This document shows, piece by piece, positions 8,018 to 53,422 of a DNA stretch of 64,000 bases. A program made the position numbers and the translations under genes. The notes under the pieces are model-generated. The model ran no database searches, was not told where the DNA came from, and saw nothing but the letters and a program-made list of their open reading frames with translations. The stretch comes from Gammaproteobacteria bacterium. Lineage in GTDB: Bacteria > Pseudomonadota > Gammaproteobacteria > Ga0077536. The DNA lies in NCBI GenBank assembly GCA_016191285.1, contig JACPPA010000028.1, forward strand, positions 64,501-128,500, given 5' to 3'. Numbering within the stretch: the stretch's first letter is position 1; the number at the start of each line of letters is the position of its first letter.

Positions 8018-9364
8018 ATGCGCTTTTCCACCTCCGCCCGTCTCACCCTTGCCAATAGCGCGCTGCTGGCGGTCAGCTTCGCCGCGCTGCTGCTGTTGGT
8101 AACATGGCTGGCCGATCGCTTCATGGTGGAGCATGTGCAGGAGAGCGTAAAAGCCGAGCTGCGCATCCTGCAGGCCGAGTTGCAGGTGGACGGCATACCC
8201 AGCACGATTGCGCTCATCCGCCAGCGGATGCAGAGCACCACGCTCTATCACGACCGACTCTATCGTCTGGAAAACGCAGCGGGGACACTGCTCGCAGGCA
8301 ATGTCGAGAGCTGGCCGGCAACGAATACTGCACCCGGGCAATTTTTCAAAAGACCCAGCCGCAAATATCCGGGCGAAACCGAAGTGGTGCTCCAGTGGAC
8401 GCGGCTTGCAGACGGCGGTCGCCTGCTGGTGGGCTTCGACGAAATCGAGGTGGCGCAAGTGCGCGGCGATATCCGTCGGGCGGCGCTGCGGTGCCTCGGC
8501 GCGATGCTGCTGGTGTCGTTCGCGGCAGGTTTCCTCCTTACTCGGTCCGCGCTCAAACCTGTGGAAGCCATCCGCGCCGCTGCTCAACGCATCATGGAAG
8601 GCGATCTACGGCATCGCATCCCCACCAGTACAAACGGCGACGAGTTCGATCGTCTGGGTGAAACGCTCAATTCCATGCTGGATCGCATCAACGCCCTGAT
8701 CGTCTCGGTGCGCGGTGCCACCGATAACATCGCCCACGATCTACGCTCGCCGTTGACTCGCCTGCGCGCGCGGCAGGAAGTCGCACTGCGCGACCCCCCG
8801 CTTGCGGCGGATTTGCAGCCGTGGATTGAGCGAAACCTGGTTGATCTTGACCAGGTGCTGGCGACCTTTCACTCGCTGCTGCGGATCGCCAGTGTGGAAT
8901 CCGGCTTGCTGCGCCAGGAGTTTGCAGATTGCGATGTGGGGCAATTAATGCGAGATGCGGCCGATTACATCGAGCCGCTGATTGAGGAAAAAACTCAGCA
9001 ACTAATGGTGTCGGTAGGTCCAGGTCCACCTTTTTGCGGGCACCGGCATCTGCTCTTCCAACTGCTCATCAACCTGCTCGACAATGCCGTCAAATACAGC
9101 CCTGTGGGCACCTCGATAATCCTTTCAGCCCGCGCAACCGCGACCGGCTGGGAGCTGGAAATTTCCGATGCCGGGCCGGGGATCCCAGCAGAACAACGTG
9201 CCCGTGTGTTCGAACGCCTCTACCGCCTGGATGCGTCCCGCCATACTCCGGGACTGGGGCTTGGGCTGTCGGTGGTCAAAGCCATTGTCGGACTGCATCA
9301 AGGGACGGTCGGTGTGCAAGACAACGCACCGGGGACACGCATCGTGGTCACCATGCCGCTCTAA
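8018..9364 (+). CDS. heavy-metal sensor histidine kinase
   Basis: 448 residues. One transmembrane helix near residues 13-33, a periplasmic sensor loop of about 125 residues, a second helix near 160-178, a HAMP linker, a HisKA dimerisation domain with phospho-acceptor H240 (DNIAHDLRSPLTRL), and a HATPase domain with the N box (LLDNAVKYSP), G1 box (DAGPGIP) and G2 box (GLGLGLSVVKA). All catalytic motifs are intact. It pairs with the regulator immediately upstream. The ligand cannot be read from the sequence, but the adjacent CBA pump points to a transition metal. Confidence 0.9.
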   Translation: MRFSTSARLTLANSALLAVSFAALLLLVTWLADRFMVEHVQESVKAELRILQAELQVDGIPSTIALIRQRMQSTTLYHDRLYRLENAAGTLLAGNVESWPATNTAPGQFFKRPSRKYPGETEVVLQWTRLADGGRLLVGFDEIEVAQVRGDIRRAALRCLGAMLLVSFAAGFLLTRSALKPVEAIRAAAQRIMEGDLRHRIPTSTNGDEFDRLGETLNSMLDRINALIVSVRGATDNIAHDLRSPLTRLRARQEVALRDPPLAADLQPWIERNLVDLDQVLATFHSLLRIASVESGLLRQEFADCDVGQLMRDAADYIEPLIEEKTQQLMVSVGPGPPFCGHRHLLFQLLINLLDNAVKYSPVGTSIILSARATATGWELEISDAGPGIPAEQRARVFERLYRLDASRHTPGLGLGLSVVKAIVGLHQGTVGVQDNAPGTRIVVTMPL

Positions 9365-9366
9365 GG

Positions 9367-9426
9367 GAATTAAGAATTAAGGTGCCGGCGTGGTTAGAAT
9401 TAAGAATTAAGGTGCCGGCGTGGTTA
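9367..9426 (+). repeat. tandem duplication of a 30-bp unit
   Basis: Two exact head-to-tail copies (9367-9396 and 9397-9426), each starting GAATTAAGAATTAAGG and ending GCCGGCGTGGTTA, begin just after the kinase stop codon. There are only two units with no spacer, so this is a local duplication and not a CRISPR or iteron array. Confidence 0.85.
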
Positions 9427-9878
9427 GAATTTCGCCCTCCAACAAGTAGACGGCACCGGCCGCACGCTCTTGTCTATTCAAGATTCGGTAATGAACCGAA
9501 TATTTCGGCGATCTTTGGGGTGGTAAAGGCTCGTGAATCCGCTACGCTCGCGCAAATCGACGCCGCCATCGCCAACGGCTGGCGGCACAATCGCGCATGC
9601 GCTAACTAGAGTGCTGGTGGATAACGCCGAAGCGTCCGAACAATGTGCCGTCGCGCGCAAGGTTTTACCTCTGCGAAGCTGGTGTTCATACCGCAAGTAT
9701 CGAGCGCTTCGCCGGTGATACTGCTTGGGGGTTTGCGGTTACATGATTGCTATGTTTGCCACCAAAAGCATGATTCAAAAGTCCTGACGTTTGACAAAAA
9801 GCCGGCGCGGCCGAGCGGCGGTATGACGCTGCGCAAGGTTTCGTTAACGAAGAATAGACCTCTTTATTCCAACCCTTC
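9427..9878. other. 452-nt gap before murI with no supported gene
   Basis: No convincing coding sequence or RNA gene is seen. A plus-strand frame ending at 9609 has a protein-like tail (SAIFGVVKARESATLAQID) but no start of its own. It could be the worn end of a lost gene or transposase, and I recognise no family. The murI promoter should lie in the right half. A TTGACA-like box occurs near 9789, but no good -10 partner was found. Confidence 0.5.
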
Positions 9879-40739: not shown

Positions 40740-41924
40740 CTAATGCGCTTTTTTCAAGGCCTTCATTGCCCGATCGAGACCATCAATCGTGAGTGGAAAC
40801 ATCCGATCCGAAAACAGTTGTTTTACGATGCCGATCGATGGGATATAGCTCCAGTAATCCTCGGGTTGCGGATTCAGCCATACGGCATGGGAGTAAACCG
40901 CCAACAGGCGCGCGATCCATGTCGCGCCCGCGTCTTCATTCCAATGTTCGATGCTGCCGCCAACCGCCATGATTTCGTAAGGGCTCATCGTCGCATCGCC
41001 GACGATGACGACCTTGTGGTCGGCGCTATAGGTGTTCATCAACTGGGCAGTGGGTAAACGTACGTTGTTGCGCATTTGATTGTCGCGCCACACCGTTTCG
41101 TAGACGAAGTTATGAAAATAAAAATGCTCGAGATGCTTAAACTCGGCGCGCGTCGCTGAAAACAGTTCTTCGCACACTTTAACGTGCGGATCCATTGATC
41201 CACCGACATCCAAAAACAACAGCACCTTGGTGGTATTGCGGCGCTCCGGCACCAGTTTGATATCGAGCAAGCCAGCCCGCCGCGCGGTCGAGCGAATGGT
41301 ATCGTCGAGATCCAATTCTTCTTCGGCGCCTTCGCGCGCAAAGCGCCTGAGTTTGCGCAGCGCAACTTTGATGTTGCGCGTGCCAAGCTCGACCTGGTCG
41401 TCGAGATTTTGGTACTCGCGCTTATCCCATACTTTGACTGCGCGGCCCTGGCGTCCGCTCGCTTGGCCGATCCGGATCCCTTCCGGATTGTAACCGTTGG
41501 CCCCGAAGGGCGACGTGCCACCGGTGCCAATCCACTTACTACCCCCGTGATGGGCTTTTTTCTGTTCTTCCAAACGCTGCTTTAGCGTCTCCATCAACTT
41601 GTCCCAACCGCCGAGACTCTCGATTAACTTTTTCTCTTCGTCGGTGAGATTCAGCTCTTTTTGTTTGCGCAGCCATTCCAGCGGGATCTCCCCCAGGATC
41701 TCGTCAAAGGCGGTTTGCTGACCGCGAATGTAATCTCCGAACACTTGATCGAAACGATCGAAGAAGCGTTCGTCCTTGACCAAAGTGGCGCGTGCTAAAT
41801 AATAGAAATCGTCGACGGACGAGGTTGCCACTCCTGCTTCCAACGCCCCCAGCAGGGTCAGATACTCGGTGAGCGAGACCGGGATCTGGACTTTTCTCAG
41901 GCGATAGAAAAACTCAGTTAGCAC
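40740..41924 (-). CDS. VWA-domain protein, CoxE-like
   Basis: 394 residues. The N-terminus FFYRLRKVQIPVSLTEYLTL and the AgxxSVDDFYYLARATLVKDE region are typical of VWA_CoxE proteins. The metal-ion-dependent adhesion site is LFLDVGGSMDPHVKV with a later VIVGDATMSPYE. The linker is charged (ELNLTDEEKKLIESLGG). Such proteins pair with MoxR AAA ATPases to insert cofactors or mature enzyme complexes. Its start overlaps the end of the moxR-type gene by 11 nt. The target complex is not in this window. Confidence 0.88.
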   Translation of the reverse strand: MLTEFFYRLRKVQIPVSLTEYLTLLGALEAGVATSSVDDFYYLARATLVKDERFFDRFDQVFGDYIRGQQTAFDEILGEIPLEWLRKQKELNLTDEEKKLIESLGGWDKLMETLKQRLEEQKKAHHGGSKWIGTGGTSPFGANGYNPEGIRIGQASGRQGRAVKVWDKREYQNLDDQVELGTRNIKVALRKLRRFAREGAEEELDLDDTIRSTARRAGLLDIKLVPERRNTTKVLLFLDVGGSMDPHVKVCEELFSATRAEFKHLEHFYFHNFVYETVWRDNQMRNNVRLPTAQLMNTYSADHKVVIVGDATMSPYEIMAVGGSIEHWNEDAGATWIARLLAVYSHAVWLNPQPEDYWSYIPSIGIVKQLFSDRMFPLTIDGLDRAMKALKKAH

Positions 41925-42771
41925 TGCGTCCTCGCGACATGAATACCAGGCGTTCGAACAAATGCATGTCTTGCTCGTTCTTCAACAAGGCGCCGTAGAG
42001 CTTGGGGATGGCTTTGCGCGAGTCTTTCTCGCGTAGCGCCTCGGGCGGAATATCTTCGGCGACCAGCAGCTTTATCCAATCGAGCAACTCGGAGGTCGAT
42101 GGCTTTTTCTTCAAGCCGGGCAATTCCCGCAGTTCGAAAAAACATTGCATGGCTTCGGCGAGCAGACGCTTTTTAATGTCCGGATAATGTACGTGGACAA
42201 TATGATCCATGGTTTCCTGGTCCGGAAACCGGATGTAATGGAAGAAGCAACGGCGCAAGAACGCGTCCGGGAGTTCTTTTTCGTTGTTGCTGGTAATGAT
42301 GATGATGGGCCGTTGCACGGCTTTGATGGTTTCCTTGGTTTCATAGACAAAGAATTCCATGCGATCGAGTTCTTGTAATAAATCGTTCGGGAATTCGATA
42401 TCCGCTTTATCGACCTCGTCGATCAGCAATACCGGCTGAACCGTCGACTCGAACGCCTCCCACAATTTTCCCTTAAGGATATAGTTACGAATATCGTGGA
42501 CTCGGTTATCGCCCAGCTGCGAATCACGCAAGCGCGCGACGGCATCATATTCGTAGAGGCCGCGGGCTGCTTTAGTGGTCGATTTGATATGCCACTGAAT
42601 TAACGGGCGGTCGAGCGCGCGGGCGATTTCTTCCGCCAACATGGTCTTGCCGGTGCCCGGTTCGCCTTTGACTAAGAGTGGCCTTTCGAGCGTGATTGCG
42701 GCGTTAACCGCCATCATGAGATCGTCGGTCGCGACGTAGGTATCAGTTCCGGTAAAGCGCTCGGTGGCCAT
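41914..42771 (-). CDS. MoxR-family AAA+ ATPase
   Basis: About 285 residues from ATG 42771 (MATERFTGTDTYVATDD). Walker A is LLVKGEPGTGKTMLAEEIA; Walker B is VQPVLLIDEVDKADIEF; sensor I is RPIIIITSNNEKELPDAFLRR with the arginine finger. Acts as a chaperone ATPase with the VWA protein encoded just downstream (11-nt overlap). The longer ORF starting at 42867 adds 32 residues without family similarity and is rejected. Confidence 0.93.
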   Translation of the reverse strand: MATERFTGTDTYVATDDLMMAVNAAITLERPLLVKGEPGTGKTMLAEEIARALDRPLIQWHIKSTTKAARGLYEYDAVARLRDSQLGDNRVHDIRNYILKGKLWEAFESTVQPVLLIDEVDKADIEFPNDLLQELDRMEFFVYETKETIKAVQRPIIIITSNNEKELPDAFLRRCFFHYIRFPDQETMDHIVHVHYPDIKKRLLAEAMQCFFELRELPGLKKKPSTSELLDWIKLLVAEDIPPEALREKDSRKAIPKLYGALLKNEQDMHLFERLVFMSRGRSAN

Positions 42772-42933
42772 GATGGATTCCAATCGATGAATTGTCGGGG
42801 CATTGTAATGCAAGGCGCGCCACGTGCGACCGGGCAACTTAGGGCTACGCAATCCTTGACTCGACAACGCATGTCCGCGGAATTAGCTGACCCAAGCAGG
42901 GTCCTATTCTCAAATATCGCGCGAAAGATTGGT

Positions 42934-43931: not shown

Positions 43932-44435
43932 ATGCCACATTTAAGTCGCCCACTGATGGGCACGGCCCACCGCGCGTCTAGTTGGCAGCCGATTCCAGTG
44001 ACGGACGGCGAACAACGCGTTTATCCCCGAATTGTGCTAGAAATTCCCGTCGCGTTCCGCAATGGACTCGGCCAGCACTGTGCGGCGCGCCTGCGTAACC
44101 TCGCACCGGATGGCTTGCAGGTTCAATGTAACGTCGTTACAGCGCAAATCATCCATCCGCTTGGCGGCAAACTTCAAGCCACCAATCGGTCCATTTTGCA
44201 CGCGACCGCGGTATTGCCATTGATGAGTGGCCCGGAGACGTTATCGGTGGGAGTGCGTCTGCTTTATTCGGCGACGGTGAACGAGGAGCCGCGTTGTGTG
44301 TTGGGCTTCCAATTCCTCGAACTGCGCCCGATCCCACGACGCTTGCTCGACGCGTTTTTTACCGAACAAATAAAGGGAACTCTGAATAAGTCCATCCTGG
44401 ACTTTTCAGAGTACGGCACCTCCCTGTGCCTTTAG
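43932..44435 (+). CDS. PilZ-domain protein with repeat-encoded C-terminus
   Basis: 167 residues. The core YPRIVLEIPVAFRNGLGQH through RLRNLAPDGLQVQC and RCVLGFQFLELRPIPRRLL resembles a PilZ beta-barrel (c-di-GMP effector). The canonical RxxxR and D/NxSxxG motifs are only partly kept (RLRNLAPDGLQV in place of xDxSxxG), so ligand binding is uncertain. The last 20 residues (GTLNKSILDFSEYGTSLCL) and the stop are translated from hairpin repeat copy 4. GAGG lies 10 nt before the ATG. Confidence 0.72.
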   Translation: MPHLSRPLMGTAHRASSWQPIPVTDGEQRVYPRIVLEIPVAFRNGLGQHCAARLRNLAPDGLQVQCNVVTAQIIHPLGGKLQATNRSILHATAVLPLMSGPETLSVGVRLLYSATVNEEPRCVLGFQFLELRPIPRRLLDAFFTEQIKGTLNKSILDFSEYGTSLCL

Positions 44436-45288: not shown

Positions 45289-47697
45289 CTACAGGTCGAC
45301 GCCAATCTTGCCGGCAATTTCGTCGAGTAGCGAAAACACATTATTGGTGGCCGCCTGCTTGGCGGCCGCCGCGCGTTGTTTAATACGTTCGGTTTGCGCC
45401 TGCTGGCGTGTGAACTCCGCGCGTTGTTCAGTTGAACCGTGGAAGCGTTCTTGCTCTTCGATCCAGTCGTCGAGTTCGCGGTGTAGAAGCCGATCAAGTT
45501 CATTTTCCGAGCTGTAAGTACGCTCCAGGCGTTGCGCGTTCTCGCGTTGTCGCTCGGCGGCGTTGGAGGTGGCAGTCTCGGCGTCAGACACTCCACGAGC
45601 CGCGTTCGCCACCCGCGTTTCGAGCATTTGCAAATGCGTACGTAGGTGAGTTTCGGTGGCCGCACTCGTGGTTTGACGCTCGCGCGCGACAGAAAGTTCG
45701 CGCTCCGCGGCGTCACGCGCGGCTTCCGCGTCGGTTTTGGCCTGGAGCGCCGCCGCCATTTCCACCCGGATCCGTTCGGCTTCGGTGACGACGGCTGCAC
45801 GCTCGGCCAGCAGGCGTTGTTGCAAGATGGCGAGTTGCCGCTGCTGGGTCGTTTGGTATTCCGCCATGATCCTCCGGGCTTCGTCCGCCGCGGCCTGGTT
45901 GGCCGCCTCGGCCGCCTGCTGTTCATGACGGGCCCGTGCGATTTCGGCCGCGGAGCGCGCGAACTCAACCTCGAACCGCTGCCGCTCACGCGCCAGTTCG
46001 GCGGTTAACGCGTCGCGGATTTGTTGTTCGCGTTCGGCTATCGATTGTGCCTGTGCGTCCTCGCGCGCCTTGATTTCGCGTTCGAGCCGCTCGGCGGCGG
46101 CTAGACGTTCCCGGCTTTTCGACGATTCGAGTTCAAGTTCCTGCCACGCCTGATCCAAGGCCTTGCGCGTGTCCGCCTGTTCCGCGTGTAATTGTTCAAG
46201 TTGTGCCGCTTGCTTGTGGTAGACCTCCTCGAGACGCTGCTCCTTTTCTTGCATCGCGAGCGCGATTTTGCGTTGTAATTCTTCGGCCTTTGCGTCCTGC
46301 GTCGCGCGCTGGCGCGTGGCTTCGGCCACTGCCGCGGCATGTTGGCGTTCGAGTGCGGCCTTAAATTGCTGCGCTTCCGCCAACTTGGTTTGAACCAGTG
46401 CGGCGGCTTGATCGATAGCGGCGCGCTCACCTTGCAAGCGCTGCTGTACATACTGTTCGGCGTCGCGTTTCGCGGCCGCTGCTTCCGCCATCAAGCGCTG
46501 CGCCGTTTCGATTTGCAGGCGCGCGCGCTCGACATCCGCCGCGAGCGACAGCGCCAATGCTTCAGCGGCAACGAGTTCGTCGCGCGGGGCCGAGATAGTC
46601 GGCGGTGCTGGCGTTGCGGTGACTGCGCGCGCTTGCTGCGCGCCGATTTCGTCGATCCCGCCATTTTCGACGAAATACGCGTCACAGCCTTCTTCGGTTA
46701 ACAGAAAGGCAGCGGCGGAACTGCGTCCACCGGTGTCGCAATACGCGATATATTGAACGTCGCGGTCGATTCCCTTGAGCCGATTCCGCAACAGACTGAG
46801 CGGTATGTTAATGCTGTTCGGTAGCCCGTTGGCGCTATGTTCTTCTGGAAATCGCACATCGAGCCACCGCGCACCAGCGGCGACCATGGTGGTTGCGGTG
46901 GCGAGCGAAATCCCCTGCAGGACTGGACGTTTGATGAGCTCAATGAAGTGCTCCTGCGTCAGGCGGCCGAGTGCGCCGTCGGTCAGCATGCGCACCGTCG
47001 CGTTACGCGTGGCGTTTGACACCAGGGCTTCTTCACCGAAGGTATCGCCGGGGCCGAGCTCCGCCAAGCGAATATCTTTACCGACTCGCGTAGCCCGGCA
47101 TACTTCGCACGTTCCTGCCTGGATTACATAATAGTAATCGCCCGCCGCACCTTGCTGAATGATGACGTCGCCAGCCTTTACTTCGGTGGTTTCGAGGGTA
47201 TCGATGAGGCGTTGAATATTGGACGGTGGGATTCGCGCGAATAATTCCGACTGGAGCAGGGTGGCTAACCAATCGTTGCTTCCAACGGTCTCGTATTCTT
47301 CGACTTCGATGGCGGGTTCGGCGGTCAGTGCGCGCGTGTCAGTTCCGACGCTTAACAGCGTGTCGAGAACTCGCCGATCGATCCGTAGGATCTGGACGTT
47401 AGTTACGGCCACGGCTGACATTTGGCGTGGCTGGAGCTGGGCCAATGGGTGAAACGACGTTGCCTCGCCCCCGATAACCTTTTTGATCAATTGGTCGCCG
47501 GCGACCATCTCCAATTCGCCGGCCAGCAAGTAAAACGAATAGTGGTCGTGGTCCCCCTGCCGAAACAGGTACTCCTTGCGTCGCAAGGTCAGGATTTCCG
47601 CCGCCGCGAGTAATTGCTCCTGCTGCCTGGGTTGCAGATTATTGATGGGAACCAACAATCCAAGGCGTTCACGAAACGGGTTTTGAGCCTCTGCCAT
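45289..47697 (-). CDS. cNMP-binding / rhodanese / coiled-coil protein (802 residues)
   Basis: 802 residues, no signal peptide or membrane helix. Two cyclic-nucleotide-binding domains: the first (about 15-130) is degenerate in the phosphate cassette; the second (about 150-265) keeps FGEEALVSNATRNATV with the ligand-binding Glu and Arg. A rhodanese domain (about 268-360) has an intact active-site loop, catalytic Cys in YCDTGGRSSAAAF, and the entry ARWLDVRFPEEHSANG. Residues 370-790 are a long Ala/Glu/Arg/Gln coiled coil. It is preceded by a DUF465 gene (4-nt gap) and diverges from a longer paralogue. Function unknown; the layout suggests a cNMP-regulated cytoplasmic scaffold or filament. Confidence 0.87.
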   Translation of the reverse strand: MAEAQNPFRERLGLLVPINNLQPRQQEQLLAAAEILTLRRKEYLFRQGDHDHYSFYLLAGELEMVAGDQLIKKVIGGEATSFHPLAQLQPRQMSAVAVTNVQILRIDRRVLDTLLSVGTDTRALTAEPAIEVEEYETVGSNDWLATLLQSELFARIPPSNIQRLIDTLETTEVKAGDVIIQQGAAGDYYYVIQAGTCEVCRATRVGKDIRLAELGPGDTFGEEALVSNATRNATVRMLTDGALGRLTQEHFIELIKRPVLQGISLATATTMVAAGARWLDVRFPEEHSANGLPNSINIPLSLLRNRLKGIDRDVQYIAYCDTGGRSSAAAFLLTEEGCDAYFVENGGIDEIGAQQARAVTATPAPPTISAPRDELVAAEALALSLAADVERARLQIETAQRLMAEAAAAKRDAEQYVQQRLQGERAAIDQAAALVQTKLAEAQQFKAALERQHAAAVAEATRQRATQDAKAEELQRKIALAMQEKEQRLEEVYHKQAAQLEQLHAEQADTRKALDQAWQELELESSKSRERLAAAERLEREIKAREDAQAQSIAEREQQIRDALTAELARERQRFEVEFARSAAEIARARHEQQAAEAANQAAADEARRIMAEYQTTQQRQLAILQQRLLAERAAVVTEAERIRVEMAAALQAKTDAEAARDAAERELSVARERQTTSAATETHLRTHLQMLETRVANAARGVSDAETATSNAAERQRENAQRLERTYSSENELDRLLHRELDDWIEEQERFHGSTEQRAEFTRQQAQTERIKQRAAAAKQAATNNVFSLLDEIAGKIGVDL

Positions 47698-47701
47698 GAG
47701 T

Positions 47702-47947
47702 TTAAGCGTCGAGATCAGGGATGAGTGCGCTCTTTAGTCGGGTAATCTGATCTTTAAGCTGCAACTTGCGCTTCTTTAGCCGTTTAATGAGCAATTCGTT
47801 TAGCGGTGCGGAATCGTTAAGGCGATGCACAATTTCGTCGAGATCCCGATGCTCGACTTGCAGCTCAAAAAGCCGGCGTTCGAGTGATTTTTTCCCGCCG
47901 TCCACTACCCCACCCTTATATCGCCGAGCCCAGTTTACGTGTGCCAT
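47702..47947 (-). CDS. DUF465 (YdcH-like) small coiled-coil protein
   Basis: 81 residues, helical and charged: LFELQVEHRDLDEIVHRLND followed by LLIKRLKKRKLQLKDQITRL, the DUF465 pattern. GAG lies 5 nt before the ATG. The stop codon is 4 nt before the cNMP/rhodanese gene, so the two are one operon. It has an N-terminal extension of about 15 residues relative to the usual family. Confidence 0.85.
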   Translation of the reverse strand: MAHVNWARRYKGGVVDGGKKSLERRLFELQVEHRDLDEIVHRLNDSAPLNELLIKRLKKRKLQLKDQITRLKSALIPDLDA

Positions 47948-48329
47948 TGACGCTCAAATTCTACGCCTAATGAACCAAAAATGCGGCACCCATCCGCGTG
48001 GTTGCTCCACCGGGGTCAAAATCCGCTGGGCACCGCGGGTCCGGTAGGTATAATCAAACGCATCAATTAAGGCCCTTAATGGCATACGGAACCGCCGCGG
48101 GTACTGCCAATTGGCTGTTTGTGACGCAACGGACGTTTTTGTTGCTGAATCAAATGCCCCGAACGCCGATACCCGGTCCGCATCAGCCTAGTCATGTGCC
48201 TAGGGCGAGGATCAAGAGAATGCGTGACCGCTATCACAAACACCTAGGTCTAGTCCTGCGCCACGCGATTTGGCTTGCTTTAATTCAAGCCTGTGAGAAC
48301 GCATCCGCCTCGATTCACGGCTGGAAATT
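47948..48329. other. 382-nt divergent promoter region between the two cNMP/rhodanese loci
   Basis: Contains the promoters for both divergent units. A plus-strand frame at 47998-48351 is open but has no ribosome site, is compositionally unlike its neighbours and runs into the large gene, so I do not call it. No clear Crp-type palindrome (TGTGA-N6-TCACA) was seen; TGTGA occurs alone at 48290-48294. Confidence 0.4.
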
Positions 48330-51300
48330 ATGTCATCCGCAACTGACATGACCGCATCCGTGTCGCTCGAAGAACGCTTTGCTGCTGTTCTGCGTATGCT
48401 CGTTCCGGTAAACGGGTTGTCGGTGTTGCGGCGGCAGCAACTGTTTACGCAAGCTGAAATGCTGCCGGTTCGGCGCGGCAGTTATGTCTTTCATGAAGGC
48501 GACAAGGACAGTTACACGTTCTTTTTGCTCGAAGGCGATCTCGAACTCTTTTCCGGTCAGCAGTTAGTCAAGAAAATCACCGGTGGTACGGCGGATGCCG
48601 TGCACCCATTGGCCCAGCTACAGCCGCGCCAGTTATCGGCGCGGGCGGTGAGTGATTCGAAGGTTCTGCGCGTTAGCCGCGATCTATTGGATAAATTGCT
48701 CGCGCTAGATGGCGCGGGCGAACCGCGCGACGTGCGCGTCAATGATATCGGTGCGGAGGATGATGCGGATTGGATGACGCGCATGCTGCAGTCCGAACTA
48801 TTCGGACGCGTGCCGGCGGCCAACATCCAACGGATTTTTTCCAGCCTTGAGCCGATTGAATTCAAGTCCGGCGACATCGTCGTCCGCCAGGGTGACCTTG
48901 GTGACTACTACTACGTCATCCAATACGGTCGTTGCCAGGTGAGTCGGCAAATTGCCTCGGGTAAAATGCCGATCAAACTCGCCGAATTGGGGCCCGGAGA
49001 CACTTTCGGCGAGGAAGCCCTGGTCGCCGATGCCAAACGCAACGCGACCGTGGTGATGTTGACCAATGGCACGCTAATGCGACTGACAAAATCCGATTTT
49101 GTCGAGCTCATAAAAAAACCATTACTAAGCGATATCAGTCATCAAGAAGCCATGCGCCTGGTCGATCAGCATGGCGCGTTGTGGCTCGATGTACGCTTCC
49201 CTGAAGAACATAAACAGGGAAATTTGGAAGGCAGCCTGAACCTGCCGCTCAATACCTTGCGCATGCATGCGGAACGACTCGATCACGATAAGGTGTATAT
49301 CGTGTGCTGCGATACCGGCTCGCGCAGTTCGGTGGGTGCTTTTCTGTTGTCGGAACGTGGGTTTGATGTGCACTTTTTGGCGGGTGGTCTGAATCGCTAT
49401 GGCCTGGTCAAGCTTGCCGCGCCACCGGCGGCACGCAAGCCCGAGCTCAAGATCGCGCAAGTCACGACCATGCCGGTGAGCGCCACCGTGCCAGCGTCGC
49501 AGCGTTCCGATGCCGAACGCCGTAGCAGCGGGCTCGCGGAGCAGGATTTTGACAACGATTCAATCGAAGCTGACCTGCGTGCGCAATCGCTGAAGGCAGA
49601 ACTCGCGAAAGCCAACATCCAACTTGACGAAGCACGCAAGCTAAAGGAACAAGCCGAACAGGCGCGTCAAGAATCGACCAAGGTTGCCGCCGCGCAACTC
49701 GAGGCCGAACGCACGCGTCTCGGGCAAGAAGCAACCAAGGCGCGACGAGCTTGGGAGGAAGCGCAGCGCTTAAAGAGTGAACTAGAGCAGGCCAAGCAGG
49801 CGGCCCAACAAGCTGCGGCGCAGGCGCGCAGCGAAGAGCAGGCCGAGCTGCGCGAAGCCAATCGTAAGCTCGAAGAAGCGCAACGTATCAAACAAGAGGT
49901 CGAAGCCGCGCGCGCGCAAATGGAGGTCGAGCTGCGTGAGCGAATTGCCGCCGAACAAGCGAAATTCGCCGCCGACGCAGAACGCTCGCGCCTGGAATAC
50001 GAAACGCGTGCACGGGAATTAGCCGCCGAACAGGACCGTCAACGACGCCAGGACGAAGCGCAACGTTTCAAGGAAGAGACGGCGGCGGCGCGGGCGCAGA
50101 TGGAACAAGAGCTGCGCGAACGGATTGCCGTCGAACAGGACAGACTCGCGATCGATGCGGAACGTGCGCGAAGCGAACTTGAAACACGCGCACGTGAGTT
50201 AGTCGAAGAGCAACTGGCGCGACGACGAATCGAAGAAATCGAACGGCAGAACGAAGAAGCAGCCGCGCTCCGCGCGCGCATGGATATCGAGCTCCGTGAG
50301 CGCCTCGCCGCGGAGCAAGCAAGAATCGCGGCGGAGGCTGATCAGTCGCGGGGGGGCTCGGCGGACAACACACGCGACGAAGAATTGGCCGATCTGCACG
50401 AAGCGGTGCGCAAATTGGAAGAAGCGCAACGGCTTAAGGAAGAAGCCGAGGCCGGGCGTGCGAAATTAGATCTTGAATTGCGTGAACGGCTGGCGGCGGA
50501 GCAGGCCCAATTGGCGGCGGATTCCGCACAGGCACGCCAGGCCCTGGAGGATGAGGCGCGTCGTTTGCGCGCCGAACTCGAGACGCGGCAGCATGACATC
50601 GAAGCGACGTACGCGGCCCGCTTGCGCGCGCATGAGGCCGTGGAAGCGGAACTCGCGGCGCAGCGTCAGGCGGAAGCGTTGCAGCTCCGCGAAGAAGCCG
50701 ATCGTGCGCGACGCGAACTGGAAGTCGCGGCTGAAATACGCCTGCGCGAAGAGCAAGCCAAACTTGACGCCGAGGCCGCGCGCACGCGCGCGGCGTGGGA
50801 AGACGCCCAACGCCTCAAGGCACAGTTGGAACTCGAAAAGCGCGAAGCAGAAAGTGAAGCTGTGTTACGGCGCGCACGCGAACAGGCTGAGCTGCAAGCC
50901 GCGACCGCGCGAATCGAAGAAGCGGAGCGCATGCGTCAGGAAGCCGAGGCGTCGCGCACGCGCCTGGAAGCCGAGGCCGCGCAAAAACTCGCCGAAGAGC
51001 AAGCACGTCTCGCGGCGGAGTCCGCGCGCGCCCAACGCACGTGGGAGGAAGCACAGCGTCTCAAGGAGCAAATAGAAATCGAGAAACGCAACGCGGAACA
51101 AGAAGCCGCGCTGCGCCATCAAGCCGAGGAAGAGCGCATTCAGGCGATGCGTGAGGAAGCCGAGCGCCGTCTGCGCCAAGAAGAGAAGAAGCTGGAAGAA
51201 AGTTATGCGTGGCAGGCAGAAGAACTGGCGCGCTTGCAGCGCATGAAGGAAACCGCGGAGCTACAGCTGGCCGACGAGCGTGAACGCCTGAAAGCCGAGT

Positions 51301-52166
51301 CGAACGAAGCAATGCTGCGGCTTGCCGAGGCCAAACAACTGCAGGTCGAGCTCGAACAAGCACGTGTCGCCAGTGCCGAAGAAGCCGAGCTTCGCCAGCA
51401 GCGCCAACTTGAAATCGAACGTAAATTACGCGATGAAATTCAAGCTAAAGTTGATGGTGAACGACGCAAGCTCGAGGCTGAATTCGCGCGCAATGCCGAG
51501 GAGCTAGAGCGCGCGCGTCGTGAGAAGGCGGCTGCCGAAGCCGCGCGCAATGCCGCCGCCGAGGAAGCCGAACGAATCATCGAAGAGTATAAGCAAACGC
51601 ATCAACAAATGCGCGAGCGCGAGGAAGAGAACCTCCGCGCCGAGCGCGCGCGTCTCGAGTCCGAGGCCGCAGCATTGCGCTCAGCTTTAGGCGATGCGCA
51701 AAACGCGCGGGAGCACGCGGTCACGGTGCAGCAGCGCCTGGAGCTGCAGCTCCACGAATTGGCCGACGCGCGTGCGAAGGACAGCGATTCACATAGCGCG
51801 CGTGAATCCGAGTTAGCCTCCGATATCGCCGCCATCGAGGCCGAAGTCAGCGCGGCACGCGCCAAGGCGTCCGCCGCCGAGGCGGCACACTTGATGGTGC
51901 AGCAGGCGGCGACCCGTAATCAGGAAAATCTCGCGCAGCATCGGCAGGAAGAGGCAACGACTCGCGGGCGCTTCGAACAGGAGATTTCGGCGTGGTTGCG
52001 CGAACAGGAATCCGCGCACGCGAGCCGTGCATCGAGCCAAGCCTTTGCCAATCAAAGAGCCCATCTCGAGCGAATCAAACAACGCGCGCAGGCGGCCCGA
52101 GTCGCCGCCAAGCACCATGACCAAACCTTGATCGAGGAACTCGCGGCGCGTTTGAAGGACGAATAG
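48330..52166 (+). CDS. giant cNMP-binding / rhodanese / coiled-coil protein (1278 residues)
   Basis: 1278 residues, paralogous to the 802-residue protein. CNB domain 1 (about 15-135) is degenerate; CNB domain 2 (about 155-270) has FGEEALVADAKRNATV. The rhodanese domain (about 275-365) keeps the Cys in CCDTGSRSSVGAF and LWLDVRFPEEHKQGN. From about residue 410 to the end it is an uninterrupted Glu/Ala/Arg/Gln coiled coil of roughly 850 residues with tandem 60-residue repeats. The C-terminal 40 residues resemble the paralogue's end (HLERIKQRAQAARVAAKHHD). No signal peptide. ATG has GGA 4 nt upstream. Likely a cytoplasmic rod with ligand-sensing heads; the role is unknown. Confidence 0.87.
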   Translation: MSSATDMTASVSLEERFAAVLRMLVPVNGLSVLRRQQLFTQAEMLPVRRGSYVFHEGDKDSYTFFLLEGDLELFSGQQLVKKITGGTADAVHPLAQLQPRQLSARAVSDSKVLRVSRDLLDKLLALDGAGEPRDVRVNDIGAEDDADWMTRMLQSELFGRVPAANIQRIFSSLEPIEFKSGDIVVRQGDLGDYYYVIQYGRCQVSRQIASGKMPIKLAELGPGDTFGEEALVADAKRNATVVMLTNGTLMRLTKSDFVELIKKPLLSDISHQEAMRLVDQHGALWLDVRFPEEHKQGNLEGSLNLPLNTLRMHAERLDHDKVYIVCCDTGSRSSVGAFLLSERGFDVHFLAGGLNRYGLVKLAAPPAARKPELKIAQVTTMPVSATVPASQRSDAERRSSGLAEQDFDNDSIEADLRAQSLKAELAKANIQLDEARKLKEQAEQARQESTKVAAAQLEAERTRLGQEATKARRAWEEAQRLKSELEQAKQAAQQAAAQARSEEQAELREANRKLEEAQRIKQEVEAARAQMEVELRERIAAEQAKFAADAERSRLEYETRARELAAEQDRQRRQDEAQRFKEETAAARAQMEQELRERIAVEQDRLAIDAERARSELETRARELVEEQLARRRIEEIERQNEEAAALRARMDIELRERLAAEQARIAAEADQSRGGSADNTRDEELADLHEAVRKLEEAQRLKEEAEAGRAKLDLELRERLAAEQAQLAADSAQARQALEDEARRLRAELETRQHDIEATYAARLRAHEAVEAELAAQRQAEALQLREEADRARRELEVAAEIRLREEQAKLDAEAARTRAAWEDAQRLKAQLELEKREAESEAVLRRAREQAELQAATARIEEAERMRQEAEASRTRLEAEAAQKLAEEQARLAAESARAQRTWEEAQRLKEQIEIEKRNAEQEAALRHQAEEERIQAMREEAERRLRQEEKKLEESYAWQAEELARLQRMKETAELQLADERERLKAESNEAMLRLAEAKQLQVELEQARVASAEEAELRQQRQLEIERKLRDEIQAKVDGERRKLEAEFARNAEELERARREKAAAEAARNAAAEEAERIIEEYKQTHQQMREREEENLRAERARLESEAAALRSALGDAQNAREHAVTVQQRLELQLHELADARAKDSDSHSARESELASDIAAIEAEVSAARAKASAAEAAHLMVQQAATRNQENLAQHRQEEATTRGRFEQEISAWLREQESAHASRASSQAFANQRAHLERIKQRAQAARVAAKHHDQTLIEELAARLKDE
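49929..50660 (+). repeat. tandem about 180-bp repeats inside the coiled-coil gene
   Basis: The unit starts ELRERIAAEQ at codons beginning 49929, 50109, 50289 and 50475, so the spacing is 180, 180 and 186 nt (60, 60, 62 residues). Each unit continues with an acidic/basic heptad-like stretch and ends with an Ala/Arg/Met segment such as AAARAQMEQ. A recent in-frame duplication is likely. The last unit fades after about 50660. Confidence 0.85.
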
Positions 52167-52783: not shown

Positions 52784-53266
52784 CTAGTCACGGAAATTCG
52801 TGAATTGCAACGGCAGCCCCAGTGCGGCGCCGCGCAAAGCCGCCATGACGGCCTGTAGATCATCGCGCTTCTTACTCGTGACACGCACTTGTTCATCTTG
52901 AATTTGCGCCTGGACCTTGAGTTGCCCTTCCTTGATGAATTTGACAATTTTCTTGCCGGCTTCTTTATCGATCCCGTGACGCGCGGTCAGCGTTTGTCGC
53001 GCTTCGCTCAGCGATTGCGTCAGCGCGGATTCTTCCAGGCAGGCGACATCGATGCCGCGCTTGGCGATCTTGCCGCGCAAGATCTCGATCACCTGTTTTA
53101 CCTGGAACTCCGATTGCGCGATGATGGTCATGCGATGCTCATCTTGCTCGATCTCGGTACCGGTCCCTTTGAAATCGAACCGATTGATAATTTCACGCTT
53201 GGCTTGGTCAACGGCATTCGTTAGCTCGTGTAGATTGACTTCCGAGACTACATCGAACGATGGCAT
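52784..53266 (-). CDS. yajQ: YajQ family nucleotide-binding protein
   Basis: About 160 residues. MPSFDVVSEVNLHELTNAVDQ opens the chain, followed by REIINRFDFKGTGTEIEQDE, KQVIEILRGKIAKRGIDV and IKEGQLKVQAQIQDEQVRVT, all diagnostic of YajQ, which binds nucleotides or c-di-GMP. The ATG at 53266 has GGAG 7 nt upstream; the ORF's upstream GTG/ATG adds five residues only. Monocistronic, divergent from the protease gene. Confidence 0.95.
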   Translation of the reverse strand: MPSFDVVSEVNLHELTNAVDQAKREIINRFDFKGTGTEIEQDEHRMTIIAQSEFQVKQVIEILRGKIAKRGIDVACLEESALTQSLSEARQTLTARHGIDKEAGKKIVKFIKEGQLKVQAQIQDEQVRVTSKKRDDLQAVMAALRGAALGLPLQFTNFRD

Positions 53267-53422
53267 GGGGATGCTCCACAAAAAAGTTAAGTCATTCTAG
53301 CGTTCCCAGGCCTATCTCCGACATGATTTCGCTCCCCCGTCGCGCGCGGGTCGAAATTAGCACATTATTGGAATTCGCCAGCCACTCACGGCTATCGAAC
53401 AAACAAACTCACGGAACTGCTC

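Follow-up and report, generated by a model that had tools for sequence, protein, structure and literature searches.

The 64,000-nucleotide window analyzed here, that is, the whole stretch of DNA under study, contains a single 1278-residue open reading frame (gene A; Table 1) in which four consecutive segments begin with the residues ELRER. A sequence-only reading had taken these segments for a recent in-frame expansion of a coiled coil, of the kind seen in length-variable surface or cytoskeletal proteins. The locus hence raises the question of how old these repeats are, what structure they form, and what kind of protein would carry a rod built in this manner.

Origin of the ELRER repeats

ELRER occurs at residues 534, 594, 654 and 716 of gene A, in frame and exactly where it had first been read, with spacings of 180, 180 and 186 nt (Table 1). 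Since the ELRER count and the self-similarity of the rod both lie above all shuffles, the repeat is real: in 5000 shuffles of residues 401–1278 ELRER appeared 0.068 times on average and at most twice, and the best 50-residue self-match of the rod, 72% at an offset of 60 residues, compares with 36% on average, and 44% at most, in 300 shuffles. The similarity between units begins some 20 residues ahead of ELRER, and weaker copies are seen outside the span originally described, in the form of a profile match at residues 862–906 and an offset-82 match at residue 797.

The notion of a recent expansion does not survive comparison of the copies. Units are 44–70% identical in residues over a 50-residue core and 62–71% identical in DNA over 161 nt, Tandem Repeats Finder reports no array at the ELRER region, and third codon positions are near saturation. 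Identity at these positions ranges from 0.28 to 0.50 between copies, the upper value belonging to the 50 residues of the first pair that match best. As baselines, randomly chosen codons of this rod that encode the same amino acid give 0.44, and the head of gene A compared with that of G005, the nearest orthologue among the genomes compared and of the same genus, gives 0.42. These values indicate that the ELRER repeats are old, having been made by in-frame duplications and diverged since. Furthermore, short-read collapse at the repeats is unlikely, because 30–56% of residues differ between copies. For a helical rod, a change of length by means of repeats is nothing unusual. Elsewhere in the window, a perfect 30-nt tandem repeat (2.2 copies, 9367–9431) directly follows the stop of the open reading frame at 8018–9364.

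Table 1. Coordinates of the features discussed in the text. Positions are those of the window unless an L-numbered locus is given.
Feature	Position	Strand	Basis or remark
Gene A, 1278 aa: CNB-CNB-rhodanese head, linker, variable helical rod, conserved C-terminal rod	48330..52166	+	ORF, Pfam, AlphaFold
CNB1, ~residues 34–128, degenerate phosphate-binding cassette (without FGE)	48429..48713	+	Pfam, AlphaFold strands 43–116, alignment; boundaries set by eye
CNB2, residues 176–262	48855..49115	+	Pfam, head alignment
Rhodanese domain, residues 271–356, loop Cys327-Asp-Thr-Gly-Ser-Arg332	49140..49397	+	Pfam, head alignment
Length-variable middle, linker then helical rod, residues 365–957	49422..51200	+	Alignment of 8 A proteins
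Repeat unit 1, 60 aa	49929..50108	+	
Repeat unit 2, 60 aa	50109..50288	+	70% identical to unit 1 over 50-aa core
Repeat unit 3, 62 aa	50289..50474	+	Most diverged, 44–54% identity to other three
Repeat unit 4	50475..50660	+	54–58% identity to other three
Conserved C-terminal rod, residues 958–1278	51201..52163	+	Alignment, model
Predicted helix break, residues 1151–1155	51780..51794	+	Model of window 51030–52163
CRP-type palindrome CGTGACCGCTATCACA	48223..48238	.	107 bp ahead of A start
Gene B, 802 aa, divergent paralogue, same head, shorter rod	45289..47697	-	Pfam, tree
Small DUF465 gene, upstream of B	47708..47950	-	Matched in 10/10 relatives' loci searched, including G001 and G006
Head + long middle + FGE-sulfatase domain	L053:7951-12348		
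Head + long middle + FGE-sulfatase domain	L055:3913-8253		
Head + long middle + FGE-sulfatase + PP2C phosphatase domain	L090:279-5489		Transmembrane-like segment after head
Head + long middle + FGE-sulfatase domain	L094:429-6074		Transmembrane-like segment after head
Head + long middle + FGE-sulfatase domain	L096:303-4913		Transmembrane-like segment after head

Head domains and predicted location of the gene A product

In the first ~360 residues of gene A, Pfam identifies two stretches of cNMP_binding (PF00027; E 8.2e-31, 106.3 bits against a cut-off of 27.5) followed by Rhodanese (PF00581; E 2.6e-12, 47.5 bits against a cut-off of 22.2), and beyond this head it finds no family at E 0.01. The phosphate-binding cassette of cyclic nucleotide-binding (CNB) domains follows the motif FGE-x-AL...R-x-A. 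In an alignment of 20 heads this motif is present in CNB2 only and absent from CNB1, and the CNB2 residues F226, G227, E228, A230, L231, R237 and A239 are invariant in all 20; C327 and G330 of the rhodanese domain are retained in at least 90% of the aligned heads. The AlphaFold model of the head has a pLDDT of 86.9 and a pTM of 0.59.

In a scan of 19-residue segments, hydropathy reaches 1.13 in A and 1.19 in gene B, the adjoining paralogue. Across 21 A, B and related rod proteins the maximum is 1.66, a value that lies inside a rhodanese domain and only slightly below that of the lowest of the FGE-linked proteins described below (1.70). In this hydropathy scan A and B show no export signal or membrane anchor, and the gene A product looks cytoplasmic. 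A role in anti-phage defense was considered and rejected, gene A having no PADLOC match at E 0.01 and gene B matching TIR-effector models over its CNB regions only. Rfam gives no match at the gathering threshold within the window.

A variable middle between conserved ends

The comparison drew on 58 genomes, the window's own (G000) among them, in which 20 places picked by eye from the best matches were examined; among the matches listed, 12 A heads belong to family f1. Nine A proteins, the window's and those of eight relatives, are complete and carry a C-terminal YAWQ landmark, and the multiple alignment comprises eight A proteins. Length figures omit G012 (contig end) and G014 (interrupted frame), those for the middle and the C-terminal rod also omit G001 (landmark absent), and pieces of C-terminal rod at contig ends in G010, G024 and G033, together with a separate piece in G014, are left uncounted.

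Total length ranges from 870 to 1362 residues among the nine proteins, each species being represented by one genome, and the earlier reading of in-frame units in a rod is borne out, with the length differing between relatives. The variation resides in the middle, which comprises 593 residues in the window and 190–679 among the nine (3.6-fold; CV 0.37) and which would span about 28–101 nm as one straight helix. The C-terminal rod measures 312–322 residues (CV 0.010). The middle is thus a length-tolerant spacer between conserved ends.

The ELRER units themselves are unevenly distributed among these relatives. LRER occurs four times in the window's protein and at most once in every other A protein. 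A profile built from the four units matches four times in G005A (one strong match and three weak ones, 43 residues apart), three times in G013A, five times in G030A (82 residues apart) and once in G020A, and has no match in G001A, G018A, G006A, G011A and G019A. The best self-match offsets also differ, at 60 residues in the window's protein, 104 and 132 in G013, 82 in G030, 61 and 54 in G018, and 40 in G006, and the self-match scan found no strong repeat in G011A and G001A. Some repeats of other species are better preserved than those of the window, above all the 40-residue units of G006, with a third-position identity of 0.78. The profile matches, combined with the differing offsets, indicate that some relatives share the ancestry of the unit, having multiplied it at other lengths. 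We hence propose that in one lineage the spacer took the form of the ELRER repeats, and that other species would have lengthened or shortened theirs with other repeat lengths.

Unit lengths may in addition have been filtered for helix phase. Among ten offsets with at least 68% identity, multiples and sums of other offsets having been dropped, seven lie no more than 0.2 turn away from an integer at a period of 3.57 (P 0.025). This test is partly circular, as the period was measured on the same rods, and P depends on the offset set, being 0.0013 for eight hand-picked offsets, 0.025 upon adding offsets 95 and 212, of equal strength, and 0.09 upon adding the weaker 62 and 88; the filtering is hence only suggestive.

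Helical character of the rod

From residue 441 on, gene A contains 0.0% proline and 0.8% glycine, the rod consists mainly of A, E, R, Q and L, and the last 378 residues (901–1278) are modeled as two long helices with one break. The description of this rod as a coiled coil holds in part: several orthologous rods are periodic, but the four units of the window have no significant hydrophobic period, the peak of their profile, at 3.67, being reached by half of 2000 shuffles. Over the whole middle rod of the window's protein the peak falls at 3.3, on the border of the range of periods tested, and the C-terminal rod of this protein peaks at 3.57, a height matched by 20 of 200 shuffles. For the orthologous middle rods, the peak was reached by none of 200 shuffles in G013A and G020A, by one in G005A, by seven in G018A, by 74 in G019A and by 184 in G006A; in G030A it was again reached by none, but at 3.3. 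The G013A, G020A, G005A and G018A peaks lie at periods of 3.54–3.59, as does that of the related rod protein G046y.

Opposite-charge pairs at i/i+4 number 100 in the middle rod of the window's protein, where 49 would be expected (z 9.1), and 55 in its repeat block, where 27 would be expected (z 6.7). Like charges are avoided in both, with z -8.0 in the middle rod and z -6.0 in the repeat block, and the same pattern is present, more weakly, in C-terminal rods and in B rods. The acid-before-base order of such pairs is in excess in the window's protein (z 4.0), but not in G018A, G006A and G020A. The charged fraction of the middle rod is 0.44, a value that classic single alpha-helices exceed. A charge-patterned helical rod is the description that fits the repeat region best.

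Gene B and the genomic neighborhood

The head of gene B is 49% identical to that of A. In a tree of 58 of 62 heads, four head-only rows having been dropped for short matches, the B-type heads, 13 rows, group together with support (100/99), with G154, G167 and G279 from two other families among them, and no single clade is resolved for the A-type heads. Of the 12 f1 loci with an A head among the matches listed, 10 have B next to A, and the two genes also adjoin in the other families, divergently in G154 and in tandem in G167 and G279. No B was found in G001 (99% complete) or in G006 (62% complete). The C-terminal rod of A is kept in G006, and in G001 (L044:6047-9292) it has drifted to 34% identity over 224 positions, with conserved sequence kept near the C end. 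A dependence of this rod on B would thus agree with G001 but not with G006. Interrupted frames, which may reflect decay or draft error, are seen in B of G005 (L039:4699-7009) and in both A and B of G014 (L048).

A and B differ in length, and their lengths are uncorrelated (r 0.26, p 0.51, n=9 pairs, with G005, G012, G014 and G167 left out for a broken or open A or B), which argues against a coil formed by A and B over their full length. The full-length A:B heterodimer was rejected on these grounds, and we infer that the rod is a homo-oligomer or a single helix instead.

Around 11 relatives' f1 loci, VWA_CoxE and MoxR-type AAA genes occur in at least 10, and YajQ (DUF520) and PreP in at least eight; these counts are lower bounds, since the stretches examined vary in length. 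The VWA_CoxE/MoxR-type AAA pair of the window (40740–42867) is 64–94% identical in 10 relatives' loci. The A-B pair is flanked by a weak PilZ match (43932–44435; 20.3 bits, short of the 22.5 required) and by YajQ/DUF520 (52784–53281), flanks that possibly mark a second-messenger neighborhood.

A CRP-type site upstream of gene A

The consensus binding site of CRP is TGTGA-N6-TCACA. A site of this type was first noticed in the window and was then tested in 11 f1 loci, and later in G012. Within 300 bp upstream of A, all 11 loci have a match with at most one mismatch; among the control tiles, which overlap and consist mostly of coding DNA, 8 of 1487 have one. This dyad is the only one of 3072 tested that is present in all 11 upstream regions, and the next dyads are its variants. 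Ten of the 11 sites share the GTGA-N6-TCACA core, from which that of G001 (TGTGCCGCGCGTCACA, at -232) departs in lacking GTGA. Three of the 11 loci have doubled sites, 41–43 bp apart, and G012 has two sites, 43 bp apart, at the called start of A. Within the window alone the three CRP-type matches are unremarkable, being equaled by 12 of 100 shuffles, and in the whole genome exact CGTGA-N6-TCACA occurs four times, against eight for a reversed control pattern.

The three pair loci of other families also have CRP-type sites at or near A. In G167 and G279 the site is a perfect TGTGA-N6-TCACA with a second one 33 bp on, and in G154 it falls 12 bp inside the called start. As the matched head begins only at residue 63–79 of the called protein in G154, G167 and G012, these A starts have probably been called too early. 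More broadly, a CRP-type site precedes six of 12 FGE-linked genes and one of two G043 genes, and it precedes none of five other rod proteins (G153, G174, G198 and G046 twice), nor the one head-only gene considered; it is also absent at three B-type starts, one of which is of unsure assignment. The genome has 13 class III cyclase-domain matches and 13 HTH_Crp_2 matches, 11 of the latter over the cut-off. The conservation of the upstream site suggests that a CRP-family regulator controls A, and, combined with the cyclase and HTH_Crp_2 matches, makes a cAMP-type circuit plausible.

Distribution of the head family

Of 274 genomes sampled within the class, 129 contain a match to the head profile at E 1e-30. 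Among the matches listed, these range from proteins of ~350–400 residues to long open frames of up to 2033 residues, and the family comprises three forms, head-only, paired-rod and FGE-linked. A transmembrane-like segment (hydropathy 1.70–2.51) follows the head in each of 11 long proteins whose C-terminal pattern is FGE-like, and Pfam detects the FGE domain in all five proteins submitted to it, three of the 11 and two further ones. A limited literature search found no description of this widespread receptor-rod family, which apparently is undescribed so far.

A proposed receptor-scaffold model and its alternatives

The model that we favor, with a roughly even balance between its being right and wrong, is that the gene A product may act as a cytoplasmic cyclic-nucleotide receptor-scaffold, with a sensing head, a spacer rod, a fixed tail and CRP-type control. 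In this protein, a tandem CNB and rhodanese head is joined by the linker to a long alpha-helical rod, the middle of which would serve as a spacer and the last ~320 residues of which would provide a fixed docking or oligomerization segment. CNB2 would bind cAMP or cGMP, a CRP-family regulator would control expression of A, and nucleotide binding would change the action of the head at a distance set by the rod. An extension of this model, which we consider rather unlikely, is that the locus belongs to an undescribed cAMP circuit in which a CRP-family regulator would switch on paired CNB, sulfur-transferring scaffolds, and in which the duplicating rod would function as an evolvable ruler, setting a species-specific distance between head and dock, beside c-di-GMP-type genes (YajQ and a possible PilZ).

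The strongest competitor, which is on balance unlikely but more probable than that extension, is that the middle has no length function and drifts neutrally, a helical sequence of low complexity being free to duplicate or delete as long as frame and helix survive. The 3.6-fold variation of the middle, the differing repeat offsets among species and a composition made up mostly of A, E, R, Q and L would all be expected under drift, and two very close FGE-linked proteins, G057 and G204, are nearly equal in length (1446 and 1443 residues), as slow drift would give. The excess of opposite charges at i/i+4 shows that the helix is constrained, without showing the same for its length, and the keeping of helix phase, which would also count against pure drift, is only suggestive. 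More improbable still is that A and B polymerize into a cytoskeletal structure that shapes the cell, in the manner of crescentin or of other coiled-coil-rich proteins. A long helix nearly devoid of proline, the 3.54–3.59 period in the rods of G013A, G020A, G005A and G046y, and the presence of adjoining paralogues are compatible with such a role, but both A and B bear a sensory head, the C-terminal part contains a predicted break, neither protein contains a further Pfam family, and large differences in length would be expected to upset the repeat of a filament. Lastly, tandem repeats and length variation are common among length-variable surface proteins, and the sequence-only reading had named these as one precedent; the low hydropathy of A and B in the scan and a head made of intracellular-type domains speak against this assignment and leave a surface location very improbable.

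The family is worth following for its conserved nucleotide cassette, its rhodanese cysteine and, in the paired A genes, the CRP-type site. Furthermore, relatives with fixed ends and a spacer of 190–679 residues already amount to a natural test of whether the length of the rod is important.

Comparison with known systems

The tandem CNB regions of PKA-R and PKG have, like A, two CNB domains in a row, and these proteins are the best PDB sequence matches of the A head (E 1.3e-30 for PKG and 4e-20 for PKA-R). The 50 fold matches listed are PKA or PKG entries, one of them an axoneme entry, with TM-scores of 0.27–0.31 over the head. With a whole-head TM-score of about 0.3, the modeled head would resemble PKA and PKG domain by domain only, and either its domain arrangement differs or the arrangement in the model is unsure (pTM 0.59). 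A departs from PKA-R and PKG in its degenerate CNB1 cassette, in the rhodanese domain and the rod that come after its CNB domains, and in having no kinase domain. The rhodanese domain matches the models of the single-domain rhodaneses PspE and GlpE and retains the Cys loop, but it sits between CNB2 and the rod and scores far under the family cut-offs (34.3 against 102 bits for PspE).

Crescentin and Ccrp are bacterial coiled-coil cytoskeletal proteins with long helical rods. A would share with them a long cytoplasmic helical rod, but differs in its sensory head, its variable spacer and the absence of a cytoskeletal Pfam family. The charge-stabilized single alpha-helix spacers of the myosin VI/X type offer a precedent for the opposite-charge excess at i/i+4, though the A rod has a charged fraction of 0.44 and is rich in Ala and Leu. 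Proteins of the form CNB-CNB-rhodanese-helix-FGE_sulfatase, which occur in other families of this class, share with A the head family and a long middle; they carry a transmembrane-like segment and an FGE-sulfatase domain at the C end, whereas A ends in its conserved C-terminal rod.
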